From Paeniglutamicibacter psychrophenolicus (lineage in GTDB: Bacteria > Actinomycetota > Actinomycetes > Actinomycetales > Micrococcaceae): a stretch of 64,000 bases of DNA. Made by a program: the position numbers and the translations under genes. The notes under the pieces are model-generated. The model saw only the letters and a program-made list of their open reading frames with translations, made no database searches and was not told the origin of the DNA. The stretch covers positions 186,001 through 250,000 of the forward strand of contig NZ_JAUSSH010000002.1 in NCBI RefSeq assembly GCF_030812255.1, given 5' to 3'. Shown in pieces: positions 29,927 through 37,034 of this stretch; within the stretch, counting starts at the first letter, position 1, and the number at the start of each line of letters is the position of its first letter.

Positions 29927-31333
29927 CTACTTCCCGTAGGAGGTCCGCCAACCACCCTGGTATTCGGCCCGGGCCACGGTCGAATACGGCACGGGGCTGA
30001 CCACCACGCGGGCCTCGAACTGGCGGTGCGGCTCCACGGTGGTCTTCTTCGTCCCGCCGTCCGGCTCGCCCCACACCACACGCAGCTCGGTGCCCTCCGG
30101 GACATCCGGATCAACAATGGCCAGGGACAGGCCGCGGCGCTCGTTGGAGCTGTAGCCGGTGAACATGGAAAGGCCCACGGTCTTGCCGTCGGCATCGATG
30201 ACGCGGTCGTAGTTCGACGAGCCGTAGTTGGCCAGCGGGAGGTCGAAATACTTGTAGGGGACCTCGTCGGGGTCCAAAACGGAGGAAAGGATCGTGCCCA
30301 GGTCTTCAGCGTTCCAGGCCAGGGTGACCTTCTTGCGCTGGCTGGCCGGATCGATTCTTTCCAGTGTCTCGCGGCCGATGAAGTCGTGGTCGAACTTCAC
30401 GAAGGACCCGTAGCCCAGTTCCCAGGGCGTGTGATAGTAGTCCTCGATGTCAGCGGAGTCGAAGCTTCCGGCTACGGCGTTGGTGGCCTCATAGCTGTCG
30501 GCGCCGAGCCACTCACGGTAGGCGCGCAGCTCCTCGCCGGTGTAGATCGCCGGCAACGGAGAAGGGATCCAACCGGATTCCAGGGTGTTGGAGGGATATG
30601 CCCGCGCGCCGACGGGAACCATGCCGAATTCCGCCCCGGCTTCCAGTACCGCCGCGCGGATCGTGTCGTAGGATTCGTACGGTCCCCAGATTTCCAGCCC
30701 CGGTGCCCCGGCCATGCCGTGGCGCAGCGTGCGCACTTCCGTCCCGGCGATGTTCATGGTGTCCATGGAGAAGAAGCGCTGCTGCTCCAGCGGCTCCCCG
30801 TTCAGTTTCTCGATGATGTTCCAGGCCTGCGGCCCCTGGATCTGGAAGCGCCAGTACTTGCGTTGCACCGGTTTGCCCATGGGGCGGGAGGGTGAGCGGC
30901 GATCCACCTCGATCTGCACGTCGTACCCGCCGGTTTCCGCCTGGAAGAGCAGCCAGTTGGCAGCAGGCGCCCGGCCCACGTACACGTATTCATCCTGCTC
31001 CTCGTGGAAGAGGATGCCGTCGCCGATGACGTGGCCGGACGGGGTGGTGGGTACGTATTGCTTGGCCCGGTTCACGGGGAACACCGCCACGCTGTTGATG
31101 GCGGTGTCGGAGATCAGCTTCAGGGCGTCGGGGCCCTTGATGAAAAGGTTGTCCATGTGGTGGGTCTGGTCGTAGAGCACTGCGGTTTCCCGCCAGGCAC
31201 GCTGTTCGCTGCGCCAGTTGGAGAATTCCGGGGCCACCACCGGATAGACGTAGGCCCCGAGCTGGGAATTGCGCAGCAGTTCGGCGGTGTTGCCAGCCGC
31301 ATCCAGGACTTCCTGGAGGTTCTTGGGTGACAT
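29927..31333 (-). CDS. ligM: Tetrahydrofolate-dependent vanillate O-demethylase (LigM-type)
   Basis: 468 residues, GcvT-like fold with an N-terminal folate-binding domain and a C-terminal barrel. It transfers the aryl methyl group of vanillate (or 3-O-methylgallate) to tetrahydrofolate, giving protocatechuate and 5-methyl-THF. Long stretches match Sphingobium LigM from memory ([50 protein letters not shown]). His59, Arg121 and Tyr246 correspond with an offset of one to the LigM residues His60, Arg122 and the catalytic Tyr247. GGAAAGGAAG precedes ATG 31333. A VanR-type palindrome lies at 31444-31461 upstream, and metF is nearby. Confidence 0.85.
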
Positions 31334-31443
31334 GCGAGAAGGCTTCCTTTCCTTTGGGGAGCGGTGCCCTCTTCTTGTCAGGCCCGCACCGGAACACGAA
31401 GGAGCGGCGTATCTGCCGCTACCCCGACCATAGGCCAACAGAC

Positions 31444-31461
31444 TCACTAAGTCGATAGTTA
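31444..31461. promoter_or_regulatory. VanR-type operator upstream of ligM
   Basis: TCACTAA, a 4-nt spacer and ATAGTTA form an imperfect dyad with the core CTAA-N4-ATAG, 111 bp before the ligM start. It matches the vanA operator in architecture and in the spacer gtcg. Confidence 0.5.
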
Positions 31462-31556
31462 TTTTCCGGGAAATCAAACCCCACCCGTCCTTGCCGCGCC
31501 CCCCGGAGGCGGTGGAGTTGTGCGCCCAAATACTTGGTCCCGTCATGATCCCCCAA

Positions 31557-31577
31557 AACACTATCGGAATAGGTAGT
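31557..31577. promoter_or_regulatory. VanR-type operator upstream of binding protein 3
   Basis: CTAT (31561-31564), spacer cgga, ATAGGTAGT (31569-31577). The right half is identical to that of the vanA operator over nine bases. It is 58 bp before the binding-protein start. Confidence 0.6.
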
Positions 31578-31634
31578 ATGCGACGTACATCACTTTTTGT
31601 TTCGGGGGCGACCCCGGGAATCCTGGAGACCAGC

Positions 31635-34804: not shown

Positions 34805-34867
34805 TTGCAAATCACTATATCCGCAGTTACTCTATGACCAACACCACTAACTATGTCGATAGGTAGT
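34805..34867 (+). promoter_or_regulatory. vanA promoter and VanR operator
   Basis: TTGCAA (34805-34810) and TACTCT (34828-34833) with a 17-bp spacer form the promoter. Just downstream, ACTAACTAT (34846-34854) and ATAGGTAGT (34859-34867), separated by 4 nt, form an 8/9 palindrome. A bound repressor would sit at the transcription start region. Confidence 0.7.
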
Positions 34868-34895
34868 CTTGCTGCCGTATCGAAAGGAAAACCCC

Positions 34896-35990
34896 ATGAC
34901 CGTCGTCGCCACGACCAGCTCCACCACCAACAAGGTCCTGCCCCACCCGCTGAACGCCTGGTACGTGGCCGGCTGGGACCACGAGGTCACCCGCAAGCCG
35001 ATGTCCCGCCGCATCGCCAACCGGCCCGTGGCCCTCTACCGCACCGAGGACGGCAGGGCCGTCGCGCTGGCGGACGCCTGCTGGCACCGGCTTGCGCCGC
35101 TGTCCATGGGCAAGACCATGGAAAAGGACACCATCCAGTGCCCGTACCACGGCATCATCTACAACTCGGCCGGCCGTTGCGTCTCCATGCCGGCGCAGGA
35201 AACCATCAACCCCTCCGCCACCGTCCCCTCGTTCCCGGTCGTGGAGCGCTACCGCTATGTGTGGATCTGGATGGGCGACCCGACGCTGGCCGACCCGGAC
35301 CTGGTGCCGGACATGCACCAGATGACTTCCGACGAGTGGGCGGGAGACGGGCTGACCATCCACGCGGCCTGCAACTTCCAGCTGGTGCTGGACAACCTCA
35401 TGGACCTGACCCACGAGGAGTTCGTCCATTCCTCCACGATCGGCCAGGAGGAACTCAGCGAGTCCGACTTCGTCACCGTGCGCGAGGGCAACAAGGTGAC
35501 CGTCACTCGCTGGATGCACAACATCGACGCCCCGCCGTTTTGGCTCAAGAACATGCGCGACAAGTTCCCCGGTTTCGAGGGCAAGGTCGACCGCTGGCAA
35601 ATCATCAACTTCGAGGCACCCTCCACCATCAGCATCGACGTGGGCGTGGCCAAGGCCGGCACCGGTGCACCGGAAGGCGACCGCAGCCAGGGCGTGAACG
35701 GTTTCGTCATGAACACCATCACCCCGGAAACCGACAGGTCCTCCCACTATTTCTGGGCCTTCATGCGCAACTACTGCCTCGACAGCCAGCTGATCACCAC
35801 CCAGCTGCGCGACGGCGTCCACGGGGTCTTTGGCGAGGACGAGGAAATGCTCATGGCCCAGCAGGCGGCCATCGACGCCAACCCGGACTACGAGTTCTAC
35901 AACCTGAACATCGATTCGGGCGGCATGTGGGTGCGCCGCATCCTCGAAGCGATGCTGGCCGCCGAGGGCCGCCTGGCCGCCTCCGCCTAA
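34896..35990 (+). CDS. vanA: Vanillate monooxygenase oxygenase subunit
   Basis: 364 residues, Rieske non-heme iron oxygenase. The [2Fe-2S] ligands are Cys62-x-His64-x17-Cys82-x2-His85 (CWHRLAPL ... CPYHGIIY). The mononuclear iron motif lies around NLMDLTHEEFVHSS. It O-demethylates vanillate to protocatechuate plus formaldehyde with NADH and O2. AAGGAAAA precedes ATG 34896. It is divergent from the PadR regulator and followed by vanB; a hairpin spans its stop codon. Confidence 0.9.
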   Translation: MTVVATTSSTTNKVLPHPLNAWYVAGWDHEVTRKPMSRRIANRPVALYRTEDGRAVALADACWHRLAPLSMGKTMEKDTIQCPYHGIIYNSAGRCVSMPAQETINPSATVPSFPVVERYRYVWIWMGDPTLADPDLVPDMHQMTSDEWAGDGLTIHAACNFQLVLDNLMDLTHEEFVHSSTIGQEELSESDFVTVREGNKVTVTRWMHNIDAPPFWLKNMRDKFPGFEGKVDRWQIINFEAPSTISIDVGVAKAGTGAPEGDRSQGVNGFVMNTITPETDRSSHYFWAFMRNYCLDSQLITTQLRDGVHGVFGEDEEMLMAQQAAIDANPDYEFYNLNIDSGGMWVRRILEAMLAAEGRLAASA

Positions 35991-35997
35991 GGCGGAG
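35981..35997 (+). other. Hairpin with the vanA stop codon in its loop
   Basis: CTCCGCC (35981-35987) and GGCGGAG (35991-35997) form a 7-bp stem whose 3-nt loop is the vanA TAA. It may tune vanA:vanB expression or mRNA stability. Confidence 0.4.
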
Positions 35998-36026
35998 AAG
36001 GACAGCGAAGGATACGGACAAGGACC

Positions 36027-37034
36027 ATGGCAGCAACCAACATTGAAACCTGGCAATCGGCCACCGTCAAACAGGTGGTACCGGTCGCCGACGGCATTGC
36101 ACGCATCGTGCTCGAACCCTCCCTGCCGCTCAAGGCCGAACCGGGATCGCACGTGGACCTGATGGTCAAGATCGACGGGGAGCCGGCCAAGCGCTCCTAC
36201 TCGGTGGTGGAGTCGAACCACGACGGCACCCGGCTGGTGATCAGCGTGATGAAGGCGCCGCTCTCGCGGGGAGGCTCGATCTTCATGCACGGCCTGGTGC
36301 CGGGGCAGCGACTTGAAATCACGCAGCCGCTGCAGAACTTCCCGCTGCGCGTCGGCGCCCGGCGCTACATCCTGCTCGCCGGAGGCATCGGCATCACCGC
36401 AATCGCCAACATGGCAGCGGTGCTCAAACGGCTGAAGGCCGACTACACGCTGGTGTACGTCGGACGCAGCCGCAGCGCCATGGCGTACCTGAAAAAACTG
36501 TCCGAACTGCACGGCGAGCGTCTCGAGGTGCACGTCGACGACGAGGGCTCCTCGCTGGGCGTCCCCGCGCTGGTGGACCGCGCGGATGCGGACACCGAGC
36601 TGTACATGTGCGGGCCGATCCGGCTGATGGACGCGGTGCGCCGCAGCTGGGTCGGGCGCGAACTGGACTTGCCCAACCTTCGTTACGAGACCTTCGGCAA
36701 CAGCGGCTGGTACGATCCCGAGGAATTCATCGTCAGGGTTCCCAAGCTCAACCTGGAGGTCAAGGTCCCCCAGGGCCGCTCCATGCTCGAGGCCCTCGAG
36801 GACGCGGGCGCGGAGATGATGTTCGACTGCCGCAAGGGCGAATGCGGGCTCTGCGAGGTCCGCATCACCGAGCTCTCCGGAGCCATCGACCACCGCGATG
36901 TGTTCTATTCCGAGCGCCAGCAGCGCCAGGGCACGAAGATGAACTGCTGCGTCTCGCGCGCCGTCACCTCCCCGACAGGTTCCCGGAGCGATGCGGGCGC
37001 CGGACCGGCGGTCATCACGATCGAACCGAACTAG
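36027..37034 (+). CDS. vanB: Vanillate monooxygenase reductase subunit
   Basis: 335 residues: FAD/NADH-binding ferredoxin-reductase domain (1 to about 230) and a C-terminal plant-type ferredoxin. KRSYSVVESNHDGTRLVISV is the flavin segment, ILLAGGIGITAIANMA the nucleotide segment, and DCRKGECGLC plus the later Cys of MNCCVSRA bind [2Fe-2S]. It passes electrons from NADH to VanA. Start 36027 lies 36 nt after vanA. No vanK-type transporter follows. Confidence 0.9.
   Translation: MAATNIETWQSATVKQVVPVADGIARIVLEPSLPLKAEPGSHVDLMVKIDGEPAKRSYSVVESNHDGTRLVISVMKAPLSRGGSIFMHGLVPGQRLEITQPLQNFPLRVGARRYILLAGGIGITAIANMAAVLKRLKADYTLVYVGRSRSAMAYLKKLSELHGERLEVHVDDEGSSLGVPALVDRADADTELYMCGPIRLMDAVRRSWVGRELDLPNLRYETFGNSGWYDPEEFIVRVPKLNLEVKVPQGRSMLEALEDAGAEMMFDCRKGECGLCEVRITELSGAIDHRDVFYSERQQRQGTKMNCCVSRAVTSPTGSRSDAGAGPAVITIEPN

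Follow-up and report, generated by a model that had tools for sequence, protein, structure and literature searches.

The demethylase cluster

We analysed a stretch of 64,000 nt, hereafter the window (G000:C2:186001-250000), within the 4.57-Mb genome of Paeniglutamicibacter psychrophenolicus, and all coordinates below are window positions. The segment 29927-37034 holds the series ligM (-), SBP3 (+), metF-like (-), VOC (-), padR (-), vanA (+), vanB (+). In it, two unlike predicted vanillate O-demethylases, the tetrahydrofolate (THF)-dependent LigM and the Rieske-type VanAB, are accompanied by a VanR-like PadR regulator and by copies of one putative operator. The genes and sites of the series are:

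29927..31333, minus strand: ligM, predicted THF-dependent vanillate/3-O-methylgallate O-demethylase of 468 aa (NF047885, 897.1 bits)
31442..31463, plus strand: putative PadR/VanR operator, ligM-proximal, ACTCACTAAGTCGATAGTTATT (3 mismatches in 18)
31556..31577, plus strand: second putative operator of the ligM/SBP3 intergenic region, SBP3-proximal, AAACACTATCGGAATAGGTAGT (differs from the window's own motif at 3 positions and from the symmetric form at 4)
31635..32633, plus strand: SBP3, NMT1/SsuA-type ABC solute-binding protein (the version in the open reading frame list begins at 31491)
32719..33570, minus strand: metF-like methylenetetrahydrofolate reductase of the LigM-linked kind (nearest solved structure 7xg9)
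33614..33631, plus strand: putative operator core upstream of metF (2 mismatches in 12)
33676..34077, minus strand: VOC protein of the glyoxalase/dioxygenase superfamily (PF00903, 24.3 bits, cut-off 20.6)
34199..34780, minus strand: padR, predicted VanR-like repressor, divergent to vanA (PF03551, 53 bits)
34846..34867, plus strand: putative PadR/VanR operator of padR/vanA, an inverted repeat, ACTAACTATGTCGATAGGTAGT
34869..35990, plus strand: vanA, predicted Rieske oxygenase of vanillate O-demethylase, likely start ATG 34896 (Rieske and VanA_C domains)
36027..37034, plus strand: vanB, NAD/2Fe-2S reductase (domains, CX4CX2C...C motif)

The start of ligM at 31333 was taken from the gene call; the mechanical open reading frame extends to 31798. 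The order LigM-SBP-MetF-PadR-VanA-VanB is common to the window and to all seven other LigM-carrying clusters of the genus, so the gene cluster is not a chance arrangement.

Identity of LigM, MetF and VanAB

The initial annotation had proposed two vanillate O-demethylases in one cluster, and model scores, domains and motifs agree that a real LigM stands beside VanAB. The 468-aa protein belongs to the LigM equivalog family NF047885 (vanillate/3-O-methylgallate O-demethylase), its 897.1 bits standing against a cut-off of 580. We rejected it as DesA, as the syringate O-demethylase model gave 617.6 bits, below its cut-off of 800, and likewise as GcvT (70.8, cut-off 300) or DmdA (35.4, cut-off 410). 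Residues 2-464 align with the solved LigM chains 5tl4/5x1i at 754 bits. His59, Arg121 and Tyr246, whose conservation had been claimed as the mark of a working site, are all present and aligned with His, Arg and Tyr of these chains; we take them to be the catalytic tyrosine and the substrate-site histidine and arginine of LigM, and the offset of +1 to LigM numbering (60/122/247) presumably depends on the tag length of the chains. At position 121, all 135 rows that are 60 % or more identical to the window LigM carry Arg, and 20 of the 26 rows at 40-59 % carry His. His59 and Tyr246 are conserved in LigM-like and DesA-like rows alike, with one gap at 59.

A placement with DmdA or GcvT had been set beforehand as the result that would speak against LigM. 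The family models separate these proteins, and in a tree made by a quick method from 53 of 162 distinct aligned rows, with DmdA and GcvT left out, the six rows below 60 % identity (DesA-like) are split by one branch with support 98 from the window LigM, which groups with the sphingomonad LigMs. The window LigM is 98 % identical to LigM of Arthrobacter sp. AQ5-05, 94 % to that of Paeniglutamicibacter sulfureus and 70-71 % to four sphingomonad LigMs. By the LigM model, the genome holds one LigM/DesA-like protein, the next match reaching 68 bits; the DesA model was not run genome-wide. A second GcvT-like protein of the genome (L005 1315-2619, G000:C27; 434 aa) gave 27.6 bits on the LigM model, and its size and family recall the demethylenases BrdA/SesA described in PMC5547118.

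The MetF-like protein matched 7xg9 (5,10-methylenetetrahydrofolate reductase) with 255 bits and the next solved structure, the MTHFR 6fcx, with 28 bits. We assume that 7xg9 is the MetF of Sphingobium sp. SYK-6. A separate, ordinary MetF is encoded on contig C1 (206 bits, PF02219). Among 15 genomes of the genus, MetF-like matches were present in all 8 with LigM and in none of the 7 without it. The expectation of an adjacent MetF stands as to its LigM-linked kind and fails as to its exact place, since SBP3 (31635-32633, +) lies between it and ligM. One more protein like the window MetF (44 %) is encoded at L013 1027-1962 (G000:C3), on a contig without a GcvT- or LigM-family match.

VanA is recognised by a VanA_C domain (162.6 bits, cut-off 23.5) and a Rieske domain, by the motifs CWH-X17-CPYH and NLMDLTHEEFVH, and by the pattern NxxDxxHxxxxH borne by VanA_C. 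Its likely start, ATG 34896 (364 aa), is preceded by the ribosome-binding-like stretch GAAAGGAAAACCCC. VanB adjoins it and has the NAD-binding and C-terminal 2Fe-2S domains and the CX4CX2C...C motif of the reductase component. A further VanA_C protein, encoded at C1:659401 and 42 % identical to the window VanA, was considered as the true VanA and rejected, no recognisable VanB being present in the 1.4 kb examined downstream.

A shared operator-like motif

PadR aligned end to end with PDB entries 6lg2/5z7b at 169 bits and matched PF03551 with 53 bits, which identifies the PadR fold. We take both structures to be VanR of Corynebacterium glutamicum. The operator of that regulator is AACTAACTAA(N4)TTAGGTATTT, and both half-sites agree with the motif in the window. 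Between padR and vanA lies the inverted repeat ACTAACTAT-GTCG-ATAGGTAGT, the putative operator ACTAACTATN4ATAGGTAGT. The 22-base pattern was derived from this site, and its symmetric variant was used in the genome and family-locus scans; the ligM/SBP3 match is thus the only independent one in the two scans that follow. When 3 mismatches were allowed, the window's own pattern recurred in the window only in the ligM/SBP3 intergenic region (31556; expected 0.00). A genome-wide scan with the symmetric form at the same tolerance gave two places only, 34846 (padR/vanA) and 31442 (ligM/SBP3), and its reversed control gave none. A relaxed core of 12 fixed bases with up to 2 mismatches occurs at 9 genome places, four of them within 3.4 kb here (31444, 31558, 33614 before metF, and 34848). 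The chance of such clustering is about 2e-7 assuming an even spread, a figure calculated after the cluster had been noticed. A scan of 29700-37200 for the sigma-70 consensus returned no promoter-like sites.

The same sites recur in relatives. All 8 LigM-carrying clusters of the genus have core sites in the same three places, the ligM/SBP3 region, the stretch upstream of metF and the padR/vanA region. Of the family Micrococcaceae, 74 genomes have a VanA match; all 30 VanA loci examined (window included) carry the 22-base form with up to 3 mismatches, with PadR beside 28. Outside the family, a PadR-VanA-VanB trio on a Rhodococcus qingshengii plasmid (VanA 74 %) has a core site with 1 mismatch between padR and vanA. 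We also collected 78 named LigM loci, the best 78 of at least 582 relatives, which overlap with the family loci. The core is present in 53 of them, 41 of the 42 with PadR and 12 of the 36 without. Across these loci, 86 of 87 core sites fall upstream of LigM, MetF, PadR, SBP3 or VanA (4.3 % of bases), a figure that is partly circular because the core was chosen after the strict-form hits had been seen, partly in the same loci. The half-site-swapped control motif has 2 sites in these loci, 1 of them in those upstream bases; the upstream masks were set from tblastn ends, not true starts, and covered genes at 45 % identity or above.

In two family genomes (G040 and G067) vanA has a perfect operator but lacks a PadR match within 1.5 kb; PadR, together with a site at 2-3 mismatches, is found at the ligM locus, some 90-100 kb from vanA. 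On the simplest reading, vanA would be controlled from the ligM locus there.

C. glutamicum VanR is described as a PadR-like repressor of vanABK that is inhibited by vanillate in vitro and whose operator lies downstream of the -10 element (PMC8358305). Our search of open-licence literature turned up no description of ligM being controlled by PadR/VanR.

Distribution and evolution of the two enzymes

LigM had been described as best known from Sphingobium, and by the counts it is not unusual in this family: it scores over the cut-off in 8 of 15 genomes of the genus and 90 of 395 of the family, and matches at E <= 1e-100 occur in 17 of 32 family genera. VanA of the window kind (E <= 1e-100) is present in 74 of the 395. 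The two occur together in 38 genomes (odds ratio 5.5), and in 30 of 380 outside the genus (odds ratio 5.0), by a Fisher test that ignores shared ancestry and from which G244, with a LigM match under the cut-off, was excluded beforehand. They are neighbours in 9 of the 38, namely 8 in the genus and G021, as judged by eye from listed positions. In 40 further family stretches around LigM, from 35 chosen genomes, VanA was near in 1; one stretch (L097) ends at its LigM and none was seen there. VanA is near in 4 of the 78 named LigM loci as well, and these add nothing independent because they are the same as G009, G011, G012 and G021.

We rejected the idea that LigM is rare in the genus or freshly imported into it, as five of the eight cluster LigMs, those in the tree, form one group with support 99 beside another Micrococcaceae protein. 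Paeniglutamicibacter gangotriensis (G003:C10; L015/L237) has an extra LigM (73 %), placed in another clade than the cluster LigMs of the genus, with a divergent MetF (27 %) and no VanA near. This copy looks separately acquired.

Three LigM-less genomes of the genus (G006, G010, G014) keep ATPase-PadR-VanA-VanB without ligM, SBP3 and metF, and thus present a natural empty site. The best matches to SBP3 in their VanA regions are at 43-45 %, and G001 and G004 have none. VOC was matched in 4 of the 7 other LigM-carrying clusters of the genus (in G011 beyond vanB) and in the LigM-less G004. When LigM presence is mapped on a VanA+VanB+PadR tree, it requires 2 changes; because the root is weakly supported, gain and loss of LigM are not distinguishable.

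The empty site and these two changes are what would be expected if the LigM-SBP3-MetF cassette were being gained or lost beside a sufficient VanAB, with no selected function for having both. We regard such redundancy in transition as unlikely. The order and the operators are conserved in all 8 carriers down to 90 % identity in LigM and 70 % in MetF, and the co-occurrence of LigM and VanA exceeds chance in the family, also when the genus is left out, with shared ancestry uncorrected.

Surrounding pathway genes

Upstream of the cluster the window carries two further gene sets and a transporter. The first set was recognised by Pfam/NCBIfam domains, together with the best solved match of its regulator:

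19318-19785, minus strand: CouR-like MarR regulator (best solved match 5cyv/3fm5, CouR of Rhodococcus jostii RHA1; PMC4737184)
19914-20840, plus strand: SDR
20858-21751, plus strand: amidohydrolase
21748-22935, plus strand: acyl-CoA dehydrogenase
23009-23464, plus strand: MaoC
23696-24691, plus strand: SBP1
24755-26299, plus strand: AMP-ligase

As a set, 19318..26299 most resembles cou-like hydroxycinnamate side-chain genes and is so assigned here, as a prediction. The cou genes of RHA1 are reported to shorten hydroxycinnamates such as ferulate, with the amidohydrolase taking the last step (PMC4737184). A close copy of the amidohydrolase is present in all 15 genomes of the genus, one being cut by a contig end, so this gene is independent of LigM.

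The second set was assigned from Pfam domains:

10596-11411, minus strand: alpha/beta hydrolase
11408-12817, minus strand: lyase (PcaB-like)
13004-13597, minus strand: PcaG, intradiol dioxygenase subunit
13599-14432, minus strand: PcaH, intradiol dioxygenase subunit (the domains of the PcaGH pair include PCDO_beta_N)
14491-15681, minus strand: FAD monooxygenase (PobA-like)

From these domains, 10596..15681 would represent protocatechuate genes. With cou-like, demethylase and pca-type genes together, a single window is enough to trace the route from ferulate through vanillate and protocatechuate to ring cleavage.

The transporter is of a kind that is near LigM in several other genera as well:

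26339..29754, plus strand: ABC transporter (SBP2, two permeases, ATPase; assigned by domains)

In another genome of the genus (G002), an operator-like site lies before SBP2 of the ABC operon (L045 1244) and another near the ATPase gene (L044 17390), hinting that the transporter may be part of the regulon there.

Proposed function and control

Gene identities, order and conservation are established directly, as are the repeated motif and its near-exclusive place. On this basis the window probably contains a hydroxycinnamate-to-protocatechuate island with two demethylases under one vanillate-responsive PadR repressor. The cou-like genes would shorten ferulate to vanillate. VanAB and LigM would both demethylate vanillate to protocatechuate, to be degraded by the pca-type genes. 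VanAB would use O2 and NADH and release formaldehyde; LigM would pass the methyl group to THF, giving 5-methyl-THF, which MetF would oxidise back to methylene-THF. PadR, being of the C. glutamicum VanR kind, is predicted to bind the similar inverted repeats before padR/vanA, ligM/SBP3 and metF. Vanillate, the presumed effector, would release it, so that vanAB, padR-VOC-metF, ligM and SBP3 rise together. SBP3 may feed vanillate or a relative to the ABC transporter, the role that VanK has in C. glutamicum. The benefit would be a smaller formaldehyde load, a lower demand for O2 and NADH, and a folate pool that is fed. That a balance of O2, NADH and one-carbon units is the reason for having both enzymes, as the initial annotation suggested, is plausible. 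Its other suggestion, a split of substrates with separate cues, has become less likely because the same putative operator stands before both enzymes.

Several observations weigh against this reading. The best solved relative of VanA is the dicamba demethylase DdmC, and vanillate is assigned as the VanA substrate by inference. The reversed control of the relaxed core gave 22 genome places against 9 for the core itself, so the core is unspecific on its own and a single weak site elsewhere is meaningless. The copies at ligM/SBP3 and metF are weaker (3-4 mismatches in 18, or 2 in the 12-base core) than the one at padR/vanA. In G003, neither the extra LigM locus nor an additional VanA locus (79 %, with an internal TAG) has an operator site. 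Of 156 loci scanned for the strict 22-base form, 86 have a PadR match and 41 of these carry the form; among the other 70 it is present in 7. The high share of named LigM loci with a site depends on the later, relaxed core, and 24 of the 36 such loci without PadR lack even this core. Finally, window-type VanA is present in 5 of the 7 LigM-less genomes of the genus, so LigM is dispensable.

The likeness to DdmC leaves room for the Rieske pair not being a vanillate demethylase at all and acting, as DdmC does, on another methoxylated or herbicide-like substrate. Identity of the window VanA is 38 % with a VanA-like protein of Streptomyces and 32 % with a Rieske protein of Pseudomonas, figures that would suit such a role, and reaches 58-74 % with Rhizobium and R. 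qingshengii proteins. The VanR-like repressor with its operator, the cou- and pca-type neighbours and the VanA_C domain favour vanillate, and we consider the other substrates very unlikely.

The identities to the Streptomyces and the Rhizobium/R. qingshengii proteins also resemble the published pattern of type III VanAB, the type of Rhodococcus ruber R1, which makes the window VanA a candidate member. R1 has an actinobacterial VanAB unlike the RHA1 type, as has the window, and differs from it in that R1 is reported to lack THF-dependent demethylases (PMC9867520). The R1 enzyme is reported there to convert syringate only as far as 3-O-methylgallate, which apparently goes unused, and 3-O-methylgallate is a substrate of LigM (PMC8091115). 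The two window enzymes could thus divide sequential labour, VanAB carrying out the DesA step from syringate to 3-O-methylgallate and LigM converting the latter to gallate, both acting on vanillate as well. VanAB performing the syringate step is described for Pseudomonas NGC7 (PMC12314914), and the single LigM/DesA-like protein of the genome would also fit. On the other side, type III membership of the window VanA is drawn from the identity pattern, and a PF02900 search of the genome found one LigB-type extradiol dioxygenase, which resembles 4,5-DOPA dioxygenase (143 bits, cut-off 233) and not gallate dioxygenase. No gallate ring-cleavage gene was recognised in this search, other ring-cleavage families being unsearched and PcaHG-type enzymes still possible. 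The two-step syringate role is weak here because the only LigB-type dioxygenase found is DOPA-like, and we think this division of labour doubtful.

Co-induction on vanillate remains our preferred reading, and it can be set beside four known systems. The ligM-metF-ligH operon of SYK-6 has, like the window, LigM and a LigM-linked MetF, and its demethylase answers to a vanillate-responsive repressor, as is predicted here. The SYK-6 demethylase operon is repressed by the vanillate-responsive MarR protein DesR (PMC6888825), whereas in the window the regulator is PadR, a Rieske VanAB stands in the same cluster and the ring-cleavage genes are intradiol (PcaHG). The vanR-vanABK system of C. glutamicum shares a PadR-type repressor adjoining vanAB and has a transport gene, vanK, in the regulon; the window differs in carrying a like motif also before ligM, metF and SBP3, and the available text makes no mention of LigM for C. 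glutamicum (PMC8358305). R. ruber R1 is compared above. Novosphingobium aromaticivorans combines THF-dependent and VanA-like demethylases in one organism, as the window does, with LigM, DesA and DmtS; its DmtS, unlike the window VanA, has about 27 % identity to VanA and is described as not clustered with a VanB-like gene (PMC8091115).

A more detailed and wider proposal falls somewhat short of probable in our judgement: that one VanR drives both demethylases simultaneously on one substrate, with the methyl group split between formaldehyde and methyl-THF and NADH balanced, as VanAB spends it and MetF oxidation returns it, and that ligM-metF is generally controlled by VanR in Micrococcaceae, Microbacteriaceae and Brevibacteriaceae, VanAB being connected to the same operators. 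The enzymes themselves belong to known families and are unremarkable within them, and LigM is common in the family. What appears new is that one operator would serve two unlike demethylases, and would serve LigM in several actinobacterial families, which we regard as a strong prediction from sequence.

The use of lignin is limited by aryl demethylation. If oxygen-using and oxygen-free routes are indeed co-induced by one cue, the value of each could be measured in one cell, and the operator/repressor pair for ligM-metF would be useful in actinobacterial hosts. VanR control of LigM in many actinobacteria is offered as a sequence-only prediction.

Further observations

A betaine-type cluster at 49963-62710 includes BetT, PurU (54115-55035) and the formaldehyde dehydrogenase FdhA (58589-59809), which pass their model cut-offs, and FchA-like (52639), FolD-like (53184), GbcA-like and GbcB-like proteins and a GcvT-domain oxidase, which are below them. 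This cluster could serve as a one-carbon sink for both demethylases. In four Blastococcus loci (L241, L243, L248, L258), a DesA-like protein (47-48 %) is preceded at a distance of about 2 kb by a VanB-like reductase (35-36 %), and the locus has no VanA match. Downstream of vanB, at 37344-37580 and 37031-37648 (-), lies what looks like the broken start of a second VOC gene (MLLGGINHSAILPKDAKRLGDFYRAVFDAEVG...), spread over frames.

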